Part shown: piece after piece, positions 3,957 through 9,368 of the stretch
How the letters are laid out: the number at the start of each line of letters is the position of its first letter
Numbering within the stretch: the first letter of the stretch is position 1
Source of the DNA: Treponema sp.
GTDB lineage: Bacteria > Spirochaetota > Spirochaetia > Treponematales > Breznakiellaceae
NCBI GenBank assembly: GCA_031271075.1
Contig: JAISWN010000167.1
Span: forward strand, 1-10,651
Direction: 5' to 3'
DNA: 10,651 nt
Program-made: the position numbers and the translations under genes
The notes under the pieces: model-generated
Database searches by the model: none
What the model was told of the DNA's origin: nothing
Seen by the model: only the letters and a program-made list of their open reading frames with translations

Positions 3957-3982
3957 AGTGTGATCCAAGAGTGTAATCCAAG
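3957..3982. repeat. Two 13-base tandem repeats abutting the operon promoter
   Basis: AGTGTGATCCAAG (3957-3969) is followed without gap by AGTGTAATCCAAG (3970-3982), differing at one base. A third partial copy (AGTTGA, from 3983) runs into the -35 box. Upstream, AAACTTTG occurs at 3919 and 3945, 26 bases apart, which is twice the repeat length. The position directly upstream of -35 suits an activator site; that function is inferred. Confidence 0.55.
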
Positions 3983-3984
3983 AG

Positions 3985-4013
3985 TTGACATAGCGCCCGG
4001 AGAATCTTATAAT
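3985..4013 (+). promoter_or_regulatory. Perfect-consensus sigma70 promoter for the carboligase-ADH-LarA operon
   Basis: TTGACA (3985-3990), exactly 17 bases, TATAAT (4008-4013): both boxes match consensus completely with ideal spacing. Predicted start is near 4020, giving a leader of about 50 bases. A second TATAAT at 4037-4042 lacks a matching -35. Such a strong core promoter usually needs repression, and inverted repeats overlap its -10 and start. Confidence 0.88.
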
Positions 4014-4035
4014 GAAACATTATTCAAAATTTGAA
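4009..4035. promoter_or_regulatory. Two adjoining inverted repeats over the -10 and start, putative operators
   Basis: ATAATG-AAA-CATTAT (4009-4023) is a perfect 6-3-6 inverted repeat that includes five bases of the -10 box and the predicted start point. It shares its last base with TTCAAA-A-TTTGAA (4023-4035), a perfect 6-1-6 inverted repeat. Placement is that of a repressor operator. No regulator gene is in the window, so the binding protein is unknown. Confidence 0.5.
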
Positions 4036-4071
4036 ATATAATTTTAATCCTAATTAACAGGAGTGTTATTC

Positions 4072-5754
4072 ATGGTAGTATCGGAAGTGATCGTCAAAAT
4101 TCTGGAGAAGGAAGGGATAAGCCATGCCTTCGGCATCCCCGGCGCGGGCATAAACGGCCTTTACAAGTACCTGGAAAAGGCCCCAATTAAGCATTACCTG
4201 GTAAGGCACGAGGAAGCGGCGGTTCACGCGGCGGACGGCTACTACCGCTCGGCGGGGAAGATGGCGGCGGCCCTTTGTACCTCCGGCCCCGGGGCCACCA
4301 ATTTTGTTACCGGCCTCTATACGGCCTGGCAGGACTCCATCCCCCTTTTGGCCATTACCGGTCAGGCGCTTACCGCCCAGCTTGGCAAGGGCGCCTTCCA
4401 GTGCGTGGATATCGCGGAGATTTGCCGGACGGTTACCAAAAGATCCTGGTGCCTTACCAATCCCAACGCGGTTCCGGCGATCCTGCGGGAGGCCTTTGAC
4501 GCCGCCCTTTCCGGCAGGCCCGGGCCGGTACTGATCGATCTGCCCCTGGATGTGCAGAACGCGGAGATCGAATTCGATATTGACGCCTACCTGCCCTCCC
4601 GGACCAGGGCGCCCCGGCCCCCAAAGGCCGCCGTCGAAAAGGCGGTAAAACTTCTGGACCAGGCGAAGAACCCGGTTATCATCATGGGCGGCGGGGTTAT
4701 CCTGGCCAGGGCGGAGAAGGCCCTGGTTGAGTTTGCCGAATACATGGGCATCCCCGTGATTACGACCTATATGGCAAAGGGCGGTATCCCCCTGGATCAC
4801 CCCCTGAACGCCGGGCAGGCGGGAATTCAGGTTGGCGCGGTTTCCAGCGGCAACGATCTGCTGCTTGCCGCGGATGCGGTCCTGGGTATCGGCTGCCGTT
4901 TTACCGACCGGCATACGGGAAACGCGGGTGTCTACCAGGGGGATCGTACCTTTATCCACATCGACATTGACGCCGGGGAACTGGGCAAGATCGTCAAGAC
5001 CGCCCTGGGTATCCAGGCGGACGCCGCCGACGCGATCCCCCTGCTGCTTGCCGCGGCGAAGGCGACGGGCGGGCCCCGGAAGCGGCCGGCCCCCGCAATA
5101 CCCTTCGCGGAGCAGCGTAAAAAGTACGTCCGCCAGCCGGATCCCGTCAAGGCCGTGCTGGATCCCCGGGAAGTGTTTGAGACCATCAACCGGGCCTTTG
5201 ATGACGAGACCCAGTTTACCACCGGCTGCGGGATAACCCAGATCTGGAGCGGCCAGTACCAGCGGATCAACAAGCCCCGCAGATACTTCCCCTCAGGCGG
5301 CGCCGGGACTCTGGGCTTCGACATTCCCGCGGCCATCGGCGCTTCCGTTGCCGCCGCCGCTTCAGGCGGGAAGGCCAAAACCGTCTGCCTGATGGGGGAC
5401 TTCGGCTTCACCTTCCTGGTAGAGGAGTTGGGGGTAGCCGCGGCCTACAATCTGCCGGTGGTGGTCCTGATCATCAACAACGCCTACCTGGGGCTTATCC
5501 GTCAAAACCAAAAGTACGCCTACGGCTACGAGTACCAGGTGGCCATGAGGGAAAACAAGACCCTGATGGATTACGTCAAGGTTGCCGAAGGTTTTGCCTG
5601 CAAGGCGGAGCGGGTCTTTACCCAGGCGGAGCTTGAAGCCGCCCTCAAGCGGGCGGATGCCGCCGCCGGTCCCTATGTGGTTGATATCATCGTAAACGAC
5701 CATACGGACTGCGATATGGGGAACGACATTGCCCATATCCGGCATTTTGAGTAA
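4072..5754 (+). CDS. gcl: Glyoxylate carboligase-like ThDP enzyme (acetolactate synthase superfamily)
   Basis: Thiamine diphosphate enzyme predicted to join two 2-oxoacid units with loss of CO2; Gcl converts two glyoxylates to tartronate semialdehyde. The 560 residues show the three-domain layout: N-terminal ThDP pyrimidine domain (FGIPGAGIN, RHEEAA, GPGATNFVTGL), a central FAD/nucleotide-type domain from about 180 (NPVIIMGGG, RFTDRHTG, HIDIDAGELGKI), and a C-terminal ThDP-binding domain with GD at 442-443 and NN at 469-470. Stretches such as RPGPVLIDLPLDVQNAEIEF, NNAYLGLIRQNQ and YVKVAEGFACKA read like E. coli Gcl. Unlike E. coli Gcl, which has valine at the cofactor-activating position, this protein has the canonical glutamate E47. 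It is about 30 residues shorter than E. coli Gcl. ATG 4072 has AGGAG eight bases upstream; a GTG at 4063 overlaps that site and is rejected. No ilvN-type small subunit adjoins, so a catabolic acetolactate synthase is the main alternative. Confidence 0.8.
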   Translation: MVVSEVIVKILEKEGISHAFGIPGAGINGLYKYLEKAPIKHYLVRHEEAAVHAADGYYRSAGKMAAALCTSGPGATNFVTGLYTAWQDSIPLLAITGQALTAQLGKGAFQCVDIAEICRTVTKRSWCLTNPNAVPAILREAFDAALSGRPGPVLIDLPLDVQNAEIEFDIDAYLPSRTRAPRPPKAAVEKAVKLLDQAKNPVIIMGGGVILARAEKALVEFAEYMGIPVITTYMAKGGIPLDHPLNAGQAGIQVGAVSSGNDLLLAADAVLGIGCRFTDRHTGNAGVYQGDRTFIHIDIDAGELGKIVKTALGIQADAADAIPLLLAAAKATGGPRKRPAPAIPFAEQRKKYVRQPDPVKAVLDPREVFETINRAFDDETQFTTGCGITQIWSGQYQRINKPRRYFPSGGAGTLGFDIPAAIGASVAAAASGGKAKTVCLMGDFGFTFLVEELGVAAAYNLPVVVLIINNAYLGLIRQNQKYAYGYEYQVAMRENKTLMDYVKVAEGFACKAERVFTQAELEAALKRADAAAGPYVVDIIVNDHTDCDMGNDIAHIRHFE

Positions 5755-5772
5755 AATCAGGCGAACAGAGAT

Positions 5773-5809
5773 CCGGCGTGAGCTTGGGCGCCGCCGGGCA
5801 ATTATTTTT
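5773..5809 (+). terminator. Intra-operon hairpin with T-rich tail, possible attenuator
   Basis: CCGGCG (5773-5778) pairs with CGCCGG (5792-5797) over a 13-base loop, followed by CAATTATTTTT to 5809. A competing register pairs CGGCG (5774-5778) with CGCCG (5789-5793). It lies between the carboligase stop and the dehydrogenase Shine-Dalgarno (AGGAG 5811-5815), so it could lower expression of the downstream genes or protect the upstream message. Confidence 0.45.
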
Positions 5810-5823
5810 GAGGAGTTAAAACC

Positions 5824-7125
5824 ATGGATGAGTTGTTCACTAAAGCGCGGGATCTTCTTGCCAAATGGAAGGGGGATACGTATGTGTTTGGCCGGGGGGT
5901 GCTGCCCCAGGTGGGCAAGCTTGCCGCGGCCCAGGGTAAAAACGCCCTGGTGGTCTGTAATACCACCTACATGAAACCCGTGGCGGACGCGGTAGTGGAT
6001 GCCCTTAAAAAGGCCGGTGTCTCCGTCTCCGGCGGCGCGATAGTACCCGACGCGGGCCCCAATGCCCCCCGGGCGGACGTGTACCGTATCGAGACCTATA
6101 TCCTCCACCATAAGCCCGACGTGATCATCGCGGTAGGGGGAGGATCCACCATCGACGCCTGCAAGGCGGCAAATTTCCTGGCCACCCTGGGCGGCGCGGT
6201 AAGCCCCGAAGTGGATCACTGGTTCGGAACCGGCATCGTAAGCGGGGCACTGAAAAGCACGGGGAAGAAACTCTACCCCCTGATCGCCGTGGAAACCTCC
6301 GCCAGCTCCGGCGCCCACCTGACCAAGTATTCCAACATTACCGACCCCGTGGCAGGCCAGAAGAAGCTGGTGGTAGACGACGCCATTGTTCCCCAGTACA
6401 GCGTTTTCGACTACGACGTAACTGCCTCTATGCCCATCCCGGTTACTATCGACGGCGCGCTGGATTCCATTGCCCACTGCTTCGAGGTCTTCTCCGGGCT
6501 TCCCGCCGGCGCCCCCCAGGAGAAGTACGATCTTGCGGCGTCCCTTACGGAAGCGGCGGTAGAGCTGACCGTGAAGTACGCGCCCCGGGTTATCAAGGAT
6601 CCCAAGGACATGGAAGCCCGGGAAGCCATCGGGATGTCCACCGACCTGGGCGGCTACGCCATCATGGTGGGAGGCACCCACGGCCCCCACATGACCAGTT
6701 TTTCCCTGGTGGATCTGGCCGGCCACGGGACGGCCTGCGGGATCATGAACCCCTACTACCTGGTGTTCTTCGCCCCGGTAATCGAGAAACAGCTTAAACT
6801 GGTGGGGAACATCTTCAAGAAATACGGTTATATCGGTGAAAACCCGGACAGCCTTTCCGGCCGGGATCTGGGCATTGCCGTTGCCAGGGGCATGGTTGCC
6901 TTCGGAAAAGCCATCAAGGCCCCCACCACCCTGCGGGATCTGCCCAAGTGGAACGACGGCTACGTGGAGAAGATCCTTACCGCCGCCAAGGATCCCCAGT
7001 TGGATATGAAGCTCAAGAACATGCCCGTACCCCTTTCCGCCACCAAGGTGGACGAGTACATGGGCCCCATCATCCGGGCCGCGGTAGACGGGGACTTCTC
7101 CCTGATCAAGAGCATGGCTTCTTAG
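5824..7125 (+). CDS. Iron-type (group III) NAD(P)-dependent alcohol dehydrogenase
   Basis: Cytosolic oxidoreductase interconverting an aldehyde or ketone and an alcohol with NAD(P)H. The N-terminal Rossmann-like domain carries VGGGSTIDACKA (about 104-115), the nucleotide-phosphate loop. The C-terminal helical domain supplies a full metal site: Asp214 and His218 (LDSIAHCFE), His286 (GGTHGPHM) and His301 (AGHGTACG), equivalent to FucO D196, H200, H263 and H277 with one extra residue between the last two. At 433 residues it is about 50 longer than FucO, partly from an insertion around 120-150. ATG 5824 has AGGAG eight bases upstream. The 69-base gap after the carboligase gene and 30-base gap before larA place all three in one operon. 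The natural substrate is unknown; tartronate semialdehyde, lactaldehyde or another carboligase-derived carbonyl are candidates by context. It is not related to the usual GarR/GlxR tartronate semialdehyde reductases. Confidence 0.9.
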   Translation: MDELFTKARDLLAKWKGDTYVFGRGVLPQVGKLAAAQGKNALVVCNTTYMKPVADAVVDALKKAGVSVSGGAIVPDAGPNAPRADVYRIETYILHHKPDVIIAVGGGSTIDACKAANFLATLGGAVSPEVDHWFGTGIVSGALKSTGKKLYPLIAVETSASSGAHLTKYSNITDPVAGQKKLVVDDAIVPQYSVFDYDVTASMPIPVTIDGALDSIAHCFEVFSGLPAGAPQEKYDLAASLTEAAVELTVKYAPRVIKDPKDMEAREAIGMSTDLGGYAIMVGGTHGPHMTSFSLVDLAGHGTACGIMNPYYLVFFAPVIEKQLKLVGNIFKKYGYIGENPDSLSGRDLGIAVARGMVAFGKAIKAPTTLRDLPKWNDGYVEKILTAAKDPQLDMKLKNMPVPLSATKVDEYMGPIIRAAVDGDFSLIKSMAS

Positions 7126-7136
7126 GCCCGCGGGCC
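7125..7136. repeat. 12-base GC palindrome between dehydrogenase and larA genes
   Basis: GGCCCGCGGGCC is a perfect palindrome beginning on the last base of the dehydrogenase stop codon. No T-run follows, so it is not a terminator; it may form a small mRNA stem just upstream of the larA Shine-Dalgarno (AGGAGG 7144-7149). Confidence 0.35.
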
Positions 7137-7155
7137 GGGACTCAGGAGGGCGTCT

Positions 7156-8427
7156 ATGCCGATTGTTTCGTTCCCCTACGGGAAAGAGGTTCTTAACTAC
7201 GATATCCCCGCTTCCCGTTTTAAAGGGGAACTGGTGTCCCGGATGCACCATTACCGGGCGGAAAAAAGCCAGGAGACCCTGGTTGACGAAGCCCTGGAGC
7301 AGCCAGCAGGCACGCCTCCCCTTAGGGTAATGGCGGAAGGCAAAAAAAAGGTGGTCCTGATAGCCAGCGACCACACCCGCCCGGTTCCCAGCAGGATCAT
7401 CGTTCCCCGGCTTCTCGCGGAGATCCGCCGGGGAAGCCCCGAAGCGGATATCACGATCCTCGTGGCCACCGGCTGCCACCGGGAAACCACCCGGACGGAG
7501 TTGGAAGGCAAGTTCGGCCCGGAGCTCATGAAAAGGGAAAAGATCGTCGTTCACGACTGCGATTCCCCCGACATGGTTTACCTGGGAAAACTCCCCTCCG
7601 GCGGGGACCTTATCATCAACAAACTGGCGGCGGAGGCGGATCTCCTTATCGCCGAAGGCTTTATAGAGCCCCACTTTTTCGCGGGATTCTCCGGGGGCCG
7701 CAAGAGCGTCCTTCCCGGCATTGCCAGCCGCAAAACCGTGGTCTACAACCACAACGCCGAGTTTATCGCCCACCCCCGGGCCCGGACGGGAGTTTTGGAG
7801 GGCAACCCCATCCATACCGACATGCTCTACGCCGCCCGGAAGGCCCGGCTCGACTTTATCTGCAACGTGGTGATCAACGCCCAAAAGGAAGTGATCTACG
7901 CCGCCGCGGGGGACTGCGACCTGGCCCACCGGCAGGGCAGCGAATTCCTCCTGGACAAGTGCCGGGCGGATGCCATACCCGCGGACATCGCCATCTCCAC
8001 CAACGGGGGTTATCCCCTGGATCAGAACATCTACCAGGCGGTTAAGGGCATGACCGCCGCCGAGGCCACGGTAAGAAAAGGCGGGGTGATCATCATGCTG
8101 GCCAAATCCAACGACGGCCACGGCGCCCCGGAATTCTACAAGACCTTTGCGGAGGAAAAAGATCCGGATCGGATGCTGGACACCTTCATGAAGACTCCCA
8201 AGGAAAACACCCGTGTCGATCAGTGGCAGTCCCAGATCTTTGCCCGGGTTCTGAAACACGCCCGGGTCGTCTACGTTTCCGATGCCCCGGACGGGATGGT
8301 TCGGGATCTCCACATGATCCCCGCCCATTCCCTGGAAGAAGCGCTAAAACTTGCCGGAGAAACGCTGGGGAACCCCCGGGCCTCCATCGTCGCCATCCCC
8401 GACGGGGTGGCGGTAATGGTGCGCTAG
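7156..8427 (+). CDS. larA: LarA-family nickel-dependent 2-hydroxyacid racemase/epimerase
   Basis: Predicted to invert the C2 centre of a 2-hydroxyacid by hydride transfer using the nickel-pincer nucleotide cofactor. The 423-residue length matches L. plantarum LarA (424). Key residues match in order: nucleotide-binding SDHTRPVP (71-78), catalytic His108 (ATGCHRET) and His173 (EPHFFAG), Lys183 (GGRKSV) for covalent cofactor attachment, and His199 (YNHN) for nickel. These correspond to LarA H108, H174, K184 and H200. ATG 7156 has a strong AGGAGG six bases upstream. It ends the operon with the carboligase and alcohol dehydrogenase. The LarA superfamily includes racemases for lactate, malate, 2-hydroxyglutarate and aromatic hydroxyacids, and sugar-acid epimerases, so lactate need not be the substrate; glycerate or a carboligase-derived hydroxyacid is suggested by context only. 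Cofactor genes larB, larC and larE are not in the window and must lie elsewhere. Confidence 0.9.
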   Translation: MPIVSFPYGKEVLNYDIPASRFKGELVSRMHHYRAEKSQETLVDEALEQPAGTPPLRVMAEGKKKVVLIASDHTRPVPSRIIVPRLLAEIRRGSPEADITILVATGCHRETTRTELEGKFGPELMKREKIVVHDCDSPDMVYLGKLPSGGDLIINKLAAEADLLIAEGFIEPHFFAGFSGGRKSVLPGIASRKTVVYNHNAEFIAHPRARTGVLEGNPIHTDMLYAARKARLDFICNVVINAQKEVIYAAAGDCDLAHRQGSEFLLDKCRADAIPADIAISTNGGYPLDQNIYQAVKGMTAAEATVRKGGVIIMLAKSNDGHGAPEFYKTFAEEKDPDRMLDTFMKTPKENTRVDQWQSQIFARVLKHARVVYVSDAPDGMVRDLHMIPAHSLEEALKLAGETLGNPRASIVAIPDGVAVMVR

Positions 8428-8744: not shown

Positions 8745-9368
8745 ATGGCCAGGGATCAGATAGCACCCACAAAGAGCAATCTGTTTCGGGTAAAGGAGCG
8801 TCTTGCCACCGCCGAGGAGGGATACGACCTTCTGGAGCAGAAGCGGGAGATCCTGGTTATGGAACTCATGCGCCAGGTGGAGGAGGTAAAGCTCCTGGAA
8901 CGGGACCTGGACGCCCGGGCGGCTACGGCTTACCCGGCCCTCAAGCGGATGCTCGTTGCCGTGGGCCGGGAGCGGGCCGATCGGCTTGCCCGGGATATCC
9001 GTTACCGTTTTGACTTGGAGGAAAAACGGGTTGCCGCCGCGGGGATGACCCTGCCGGGCCTGGAGATCCGTATGCCCAACGCGGAACTAAAGTATTCCCC
9101 GGCAAATTCATTTGCCGAATGCGATGAAACCGTGTTAGAATTCTTCGAGTTGCTGAAGATATGCACGGAACTGGCGGCGGTCAGGACCATCGCCTGGCGG
9201 CTTGCCCGGGAACTGCGGAAAACCCAGCGCCGGGTAAACGCCCTGGAAAAGATGGTTATTCCTACCGCCCGGGATACCAAGGCGTATATCGAAGCCGCTC
9301 TGGAAGAAAGGGAGAGGGACTCTTTCTTCACGAGTAAACTCCTAAAAAGGAAGGCCGGTAAGGAATGA
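8745..9368 (+). CDS. atpD: V/A-type ATPase central-stalk subunit D
   Basis: Rotor shaft subunit that links the catalytic A3B3 head to the membrane ring of V/A-type ATPases. The 207-residue, nearly all-helical protein has the family signatures: N-terminal PTKSNLFRVKERLATAEEG with a long coiled coil, and a C-terminal coiled coil with ELRKTQRRVNALEKM, IPTARDTKAYIEAAL and EERERDSFFTSKLLK. ATG 8745 has AAGGAG seven bases upstream. Genes for subunits A, B, E, I and K normally flank it, but here upstream is the palindromic gap after larA and downstream is a universal stress protein gene overlapping by ATGA. It is thus an isolated D gene, either split from the main ATPase operon or a second copy. Identity is firm; the gene symbol follows spirochaete usage and should not be confused with the F-type beta subunit. 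Confidence 0.92.
   Translation: MARDQIAPTKSNLFRVKERLATAEEGYDLLEQKREILVMELMRQVEEVKLLERDLDARAATAYPALKRMLVAVGRERADRLARDIRYRFDLEEKRVAAAGMTLPGLEIRMPNAELKYSPANSFAECDETVLEFFELLKICTELAAVRTIAWRLARELRKTQRRVNALEKMVIPTARDTKAYIEAALEERERDSFFTSKLLKRKAGKE

Follow-up and report, generated by a model that had tools for sequence, protein, structure and literature searches.

A candidate glyoxylate-to-glycerate operon in a Treponema genome, pairing a carboligase-like enzyme with an iron-type alcohol dehydrogenase and a LarA racemase

Introduction

In Pseudomonas aeruginosa, glyoxylate is used through glyoxylate carboligase (Gcl), Hyi, GlxR, and glycerate kinase, encoded by PA1498-PA1502 (PMC12694930). The Gcl family as a whole is reported to be marked by a Val, the loss of the catalytic Glu pointing to a different mechanism (PMC3534367). 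Among the nickel-pincer racemases, the glycerate preference of LarAH43 has been explained by a Gln (Q359; T359 in L. plantarum LarA), with kcat/KM values of 1.14e5 for glycerate and 8.3e4 for L-lactate, and all LARs tested were active on lactate (PMC11770544). Here we describe three adjacent genes that bring related enzymes together in a 10,651-base stretch (the window) on contig C252 of a Treponema sp. assembly (2.53 Mb, 63% complete). They encode an enzyme dependent on thiamine diphosphate (ThDP), an iron-type alcohol dehydrogenase (Fe-ADH), and a LarA.

We cautiously favor the reading, made from sequence comparison, that the enzymes of this operon form glycerate from glyoxylate. The ThDP enzyme would convert 2 glyoxylate to tartronate semialdehyde and CO2, the Fe-ADH would use NAD(P)H to reduce the semialdehyde to glycerate, probably the L-form or a mixture, and LarA, a nickel enzyme, would convert L-glycerate to D-glycerate. 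A glycerate kinase encoded elsewhere would then phosphorylate D-glycerate to phosphoglycerate, which would enter glycolysis. What was computed is the anatomy of the genes, their conservation, clade membership, catalytic residues, and the linkage and co-occurrence of glycerate kinase; the activities of all three enzymes, their direction, and their stereochemistry are what we infer.

Results

The three genes are open and lie on one strand, with gaps of 69 bases between the ThDP gene and the Fe-ADH gene and 30 bases between the Fe-ADH gene and larA. Their products carry TPP_enzyme_N/M/C, Fe-ADH, and Lar_N and LarA_C domains of Pfam, respectively. The co-directional arrangement and the gap lengths given in a preliminary description of this DNA were thus confirmed. 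For the survey of other genomes, the Fe-ADH was used as the query against genome contigs, and the best 80 of 137 relatives were kept as loci. Neighbors were tallied from open reading frames (ORFs) and tblastn. A ThDP gene was counted as direct at up to 700 b, LarA at up to 400 b, and a transketolase part at up to ~1.2 kb; genes were taken by longest-ORF choice, so that the transketolase counts may miss genes. The ThDP gene stood directly upstream of the Fe-ADH gene in 13 of 74 readable loci, and LarA stood directly downstream in 40 of 76. The direct order of ThDP gene, Fe-ADH, and LarA of the window's class was kept in 10 of the 13 ThDP-linked loci (10 of the 80 overall), and hence the trio is not regarded as a chance arrangement. 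The co-occurrence across genomes that the preliminary description had proposed to look for was found to this extent. Close homologs came from Treponema sp., Spirochaetia, Leadbettera azotonutricia, and Breznakiella homolactica, which suggests that the window belongs to a spirochaete of the termite-gut type. At a further locus (L205), LarA directly followed the ThDP gene.

A split transketolase was found directly upstream of the Fe-ADH in 32 of the 74 readable loci. Twenty-nine of these transketolase-type loci were readable downstream; a second LarA class, ~29-36% identical to the window's LarA, stood directly there in 17, no LarA in 12, and the window's class in none. Neither partner was directly beside the Fe-ADH in 17 of the 80 loci. 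The transketolase-type arrangement recurred as a cluster among both spirochaetes and Bacillota, comprising the split transketolase, Fe-ADH, the second LarA class, and an IolO/Hyi-like TIM barrel, with PdxA and TctABC genes at many loci (e.g., L021, L022, L035-L037, and L049). The product released in this cluster may be an acidic aldehyde. Genes for PF12831 FAD-dependent oxidoreductases adjoined Fe-ADH or ThDP genes at four loci (L028:8598-9998, L054:5375-6781, L069:8300-9652, and L081:8584-9978), and weak relatives (~30%) preceded the ThDP gene in L205 and L210. At L011, a PF07005/PF17042 kinase-like gene (11274-12566) followed the ThDP and Fe-ADH genes, with LarA ~7 kb further down.

The best NCBIfam and PDB matches of the ThDP enzyme were Gcl, with which it has in common an NNAYLGLIRQ stretch, an HTG stretch, and the C-terminal tail. 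Its scores were under both NCBIfam Gcl cut-offs, at 496 versus 711.2 bits (TIGR01504) and 583 versus 791 bits (NF008431), as were those of the Enterococcus and Breznakiella members; the earlier label of a Gcl-like carboligase therefore holds by similarity but not by curated cut-off. In an alignment to E. coli Gcl, a Glu was found in the ThDP enzyme where Gcl has Val, so that the enzyme lacks the Val at standard position 51 that replaces the catalytic Glu. A paper search for Val51 gave no match. Of the 120 best homologs, 115 have this Glu and the remaining 5 are truncated at that place; the Val was present in 3/3 classical Gcls. A tree was built from 22 chosen rows (12 Glu-type, 3 classical Gcl, and 7 acetolactate-synthase-like), for which the program warned of long branches. 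The 12 Glu-type rows formed a clade (89/98) sister to the 3 classical Gcls (joint clade 100/100), and the 7 acetolactate-synthase-like rows stood apart from both. With support of 89/98, the unity of the Glu-type clade is moderately supported. Its members came from spirochaetes, Lachnospiraceae, Oscillospiraceae, another Eubacteriales bin, and Enterococcus.

The Enterococcus member (54.8% identity) is encoded on plasmid pCR1A of Enterococcus gilvus, inside an allantoin cluster that also holds genes for an allantoin permease, an allantoinase, PucR and IclR regulators, a TIM-barrel protein, a D-2-hydroxyacid dehydrogenase, and a glycerate kinase. Relatives of the TIM-barrel protein (37-42%) occurred in nine transketolase-type loci, and IclR-type genes of one cluster stood beside the ThDP gene in L028, L069, and L074 (one of the three scanned). 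From these comparisons, the ThDP enzyme quite likely has Gcl activity. The preliminary description had named glyoxylate or pyruvate as the compound condensed. Condensation of glyoxylate is supported by the Gcl-sister clade and the Enterococcus allantoin cluster. Pyruvate as the main substrate was rejected, since the tree and the allantoin context point away from it, and no evidence for it was found.

The LarA of the window passed the lactate-racemase cut-off (NF033504) with 608 versus 460 bits, and its catalytic residues and those binding the nickel-pincer nucleotide (NPN) were invariant across 14 chosen aligned rows. The residues compared correspond to D72, R75, H108, H174, K184, H200, Y294, Q295, K298, and W358 of L. 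plantarum LarA. Directly after the conserved DQW, at the T359 position of L. plantarum LarA, the window enzyme has Gln. The same residue was found in 16 of 17 readable window-class LarA rows in the 80 loci, the exception (L069, Ser) not adjoining Fe-ADH, and in the second LarA class wherever readable. In LarAs surveyed together with their flanks, the position also held Glu (L129, L134, and L147), Cys, or Val. The idea that Gln358 marks only those LarAs that are linked to an Fe-ADH was ruled out, as Gln also occurs in unlinked LarAs. The preliminary description had offered glycerate as an example of the hydroxyacid, and this suggestion was strengthened by the Gcl-sister clade, the Enterococcus allantoin cluster, the Gln position, and a kinase gene beside LarA at two loci. 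It is likely that LarA acts on glycerate.

For synthesis of the LarA cofactor, LarE was found in the window's assembly (G000) on contig C247, at 314.4 bits versus a cut-off of 150, and over cut-off in six of eight genomes, G058 and B. homolactica being the exceptions. The latter genome carries a second-class LarA beside Fe-ADH (L016:11284-12600). In L124 and L133, a window-class LarA directly followed a KdgT-family permease gene, a hint of small hydroxyacid uptake. A plasmid search for LarA gave 15 records, every one with <60% identity, and 26 of 299 Lachnospiraceae genomes had a LarA match.

Glycerate kinase genes were found near LarA, Fe-ADH, or the ThDP gene at several loci. In L130, a DUF4147/MOFRL glycerate kinase gene lies directly after LarA. 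The transketolase-type locus L063 has the window's LarA class and the order transketolase C part, Fe-ADH, isomerase, LarA, and DUF4147/MOFRL kinase, the last cut by the contig end. In genome G225, the genes for the ThDP enzyme, IclR, and glycerate kinase are consecutive on one strand, on what is apparently, by position, the contig of L081, which carries Fe-ADH and LarA. Three further transketolase-type loci had PF02595-type kinase genes. The one in L065 lies ~2 kb downstream, and that in L066 is on the opposite strand, 2.7 kb upstream. The third, in L056, was seen by tblastn only; it is ~5 kb downstream, also on the opposite strand, and is truncated by the end of the locus.

A PF02595 or PF13660 kinase was present in 14/14 distinct ThDP-positive genomes tested, a count that left out L002, L003, L004, L005, L007, L011, and G446 and took G125 and G228 once because their kinase places coincide. 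The background was given by an order sample of 213 genomes, of which 68 had PF02595, 56 had PF13660, and 121 had either. All 21 LarA-positive genomes of this sample had a kinase (hypergeometric 3e-6, kinship uncorrected, and hence a guide only). These 21 were over the LarA cut-off and include G058 and G206, with broken frames; for G172 the kinase rests on a short PF13660 match only. All seven ThDP-positive genomes of the sample fall among the 21.

The Fe-ADH passed PF00465 with 111 bits against a gathering score of 31.3, and the Asp-His-His-His metal-ligand positions and a GGGS motif were kept in 93/93 Fe-ADH rows. By the pattern of the family, the ligands are presumably D214, H218, H289, and H301. 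An AlphaFold model (32 sequences; mean pLDDT, 92.5) matched the Fe-ADH fold, the first structures being methanol dehydrogenases, ADH/D1, BdhE, sulfoacetaldehyde reductase, and lactaldehyde reductase at 19-26% identity. For this predicted structure, such matches fix the family and not the substrate. In the family scans, the Fe-ADH had no match to the GarR/GlxR model TIGR01505, so that it is at most a functional stand-in for GarR/GlxR. Since its gene stands between those of a Gcl-type enzyme and a glycerate-type LarA, it may reduce tartronate semialdehyde. This is the weakest step, and the chances that the Fe-ADH is a tartronate semialdehyde reductase are about even. The presence of LarA in turn suggests that L- or mixed glycerate would be made.

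The preliminary description had GarR/GlxR and glycerate kinase as absent. This is correct for the window, and TIGR01505 had no match at all in the window's assembly at its 63% completeness, but a PF02595 glycerate kinase is encoded on another contig. A TIGR01505 reductase was over cut-off in five of eight genomes (G058, G125, G168, G187, and B. homolactica), and under it in G206 (partial match, 203.6 bits, 152 residues) and G200 (weak). Absence of GarR from all relatives was therefore ruled out.

The features of the window are collected in Table 1. Seven promoter-like sites were found between 3850 and 8760 versus 1.7 expected from shuffling, and the site in Table 1 is the sole one matching at 12/12 positions; the start at 3957 in the preliminary description takes in the upstream stretch with this site. 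The ThDP ORF opens at a GTG (4063), and the ATG used in Table 1, with AGGAG upstream, is the better start. The flanks look like housekeeping regions, with methionine aminopeptidase, a J-domain protein, and an acyltransferase upstream and V-ATPase subunit D, Usp, and a PTS enzyme I-like start downstream. No hyi was found in the window. By eye, the first ORF of the window, on the minus strand, looks like a DegP-type protease. The Usp gene directly follows that of V-ATPase subunit D (8745-9368), and no other V-ATPase subunit was found among the ten window proteins scanned.

Table 1. Positions of the genes, codons, and promoter-like site discussed in the text
Feature	Position	Strand	Remarks
Sigma-70-type promoter-like site	3985..4013	+	TTGACA-17-TATAAT, 12/12; consensus match, putative
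ThDP enzyme	4072..5754	+	560 aa; Glu-type clade sister to glyoxylate carboligase
Codon of Glu47 of ThDP enzyme	4210..4212	+	At the place of the Val marking classical Gcl (RHEEAAVH versus RHVEGASH)
Fe-ADH	5824..7125	+	433 aa; iron-type alcohol dehydrogenase; proposed tartronate semialdehyde reductase, substrate inferred
LarA	7156..8427	+	423 aa; lactate-racemase group; proposed glycerate racemase
Codon of Gln358 of LarA	8227..8229	+	DQWQ; matches T359 of L. plantarum LarA and Q359 of LarAH43

Discussion

Several observations weigh against glycerate formation from glyoxylate by the operon. No named family is close to the Fe-ADH (best score, 89 bits versus a cut-off of 550), which follows the split transketolase oftener than the ThDP gene, so that tartronate semialdehyde is maybe not its substrate. 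Three of the 13 ThDP-linked Fe-ADHs (L010, L011, and L025) have no LarA directly after them. The Gln of LarA also occurs in L124-L128, L131, and L133, which lack an Fe-ADH in the fetched flanks of 1.5 kb per side. Several Lachnospiraceae LarAs have it as well, and others have Glu, Cys, or Thr. The broad-range LarAIp, with a flexible Gln357 in its pocket (equivalence to the T359 position unchecked), works best on lactate and 2-hydroxybutyrate (PMC11851776). In G058 (L140) and G206 (L139), the LarA frame is broken at different places and the ThDP and Fe-ADH frames are open; G058 also has no LarE over cut-off. The kinase is unlinked to the trio in the window's genome, and its presence in 7/7 ThDP-positive genomes of the sample is weak when taken alone (0.018, kinship uncorrected). 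As for the origin of the glyoxylate, only Enterococcus provides a lead, allantoin, and this counts on the same side, as do the GarR-type reductases of the five relatives.

Those reductases are central to the best-surviving alternative, which we consider unlikely: Gcl would work with an unlinked GarR or a hydroxypyruvate route to D-glycerate, the Fe-ADH would act as a redox valve from glyoxylate to glycolate, and LarA would salvage L-glycerate or lactate. The acidic product at the transketolase-type loci, with which the Fe-ADH also pairs, could be glyoxylate, and sulfoacetaldehyde reductase, whose substrate is a C2 acidic aldehyde, is among the nearest Fe-ADH structures. Against this, no GarR was over cut-off in G000, G200, or G206, all incomplete assemblies, and with LarA directly after Fe-ADH in more than half of the loci readable there, a product with a stereocentre fits better than glycolate. 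If glycerate is made by the operon, a GarR, where present, could supply D-glycerate directly, which is how LarA could be lost in G058.

It is quite improbable that LarA is an ordinary lactate racemase and that the ThDP enzyme and Fe-ADH serve pyruvate/lactate fermentation by acetolactate or acetaldehyde chemistry. The score over the lactate-racemase cut-off and the activity of every LAR tested on lactate (PMC11770544) would suit such a role, but the ThDP clade is sister to Gcl and not to the acetolactate synthases, one of its members lies inside an allantoin cluster, and glycerate kinase is linked at some loci and co-occurs with LarA in every LarA-positive genome of the sample. Mere neighborhood of the three genes deserves hardly any credence: promoter and gaps alone are no proof of a pathway and LarA is apart or missing at three ThDP-linked loci, but the direct order recurs, and each of the two locus types, ThDP and transketolase, goes with its own LarA class.

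As a more tentative extension, Fe-ADH, LarA, and glycerate kinase could form a general anaerobic semialdehyde tail for different ThDP enzymes of carbon-carbon chemistry, with the Glu-type carboligase in some bacteria and a split transketolase acting on a ketose-acid in others. The natural role of LarA would then be glycerate racemisation, and a second, Glu-containing Gcl lineage of classical mechanism would exist.

In the open-access literature, no paper was found with "glycerate racemase" (the subscription literature lay outside the search) or with both "glyoxylate carboligase" and "lactate racemase." Among the open-access matches listed for any two of Gcl, tartronate semialdehyde, and "iron-containing alcohol dehydrogenase," none contained the last. 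The main text of a termite spirochaete paper (PMC13067680) has no glyoxylate, allantoin, uric acid, or racemase. The earlier statement that no described pathway with this trio is known stands insofar as no open-access paper was found, but the logic of the pathway was already known; on this evidence, what appears to be new is the set of enzymes and the Glu-type lineage. If formation of glycerate from glyoxylate by the operon is true, nickel-pincer LarA enzymes would have a physiological role on glycerate, a matter left open by PMC11770544, and glyoxylate carboligases retaining the catalytic Glu, whose loss PMC3534367 calls family-wide, would exist in nature. Two Gcl lineages side by side, one with Glu and one with Val, would allow a direct test of the different-mechanism idea of the latter paper.

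Like the Gcl-Hyi-GlxR-glycerate kinase pathway, known also from the allantoin genes of E. coli, the proposed route would run from glyoxylate through tartronate semialdehyde to glycerate, which is then phosphorylated. Unlike it, the locus has a Glu-type carboligase, an Fe-ADH replacing GlxR, an added nickel racemase, and an unlinked kinase. The ThDP enzyme resembles classical Gcl (TIGR01504; PDB 2pan) in its domains, motifs, and tail at ~41-43% identity and differs in its Glu for Val and in its scores under both curated cut-offs. LarAH43 of Enterocloster asparagiformis, compared by its description in PMC11770544, belongs likewise to the lactate-racemase group, has Gln at the T359 position, and is active on glycerate. 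The split-transketolase neighborhood has a close Fe-ADH (~60-70% identity), often a LarA after it, and glycerate kinase nearby in a few loci, but it carries a transketolase in place of the Gcl-type enzyme, the other LarA class, and often an extra isomerase and a TctABC transporter.

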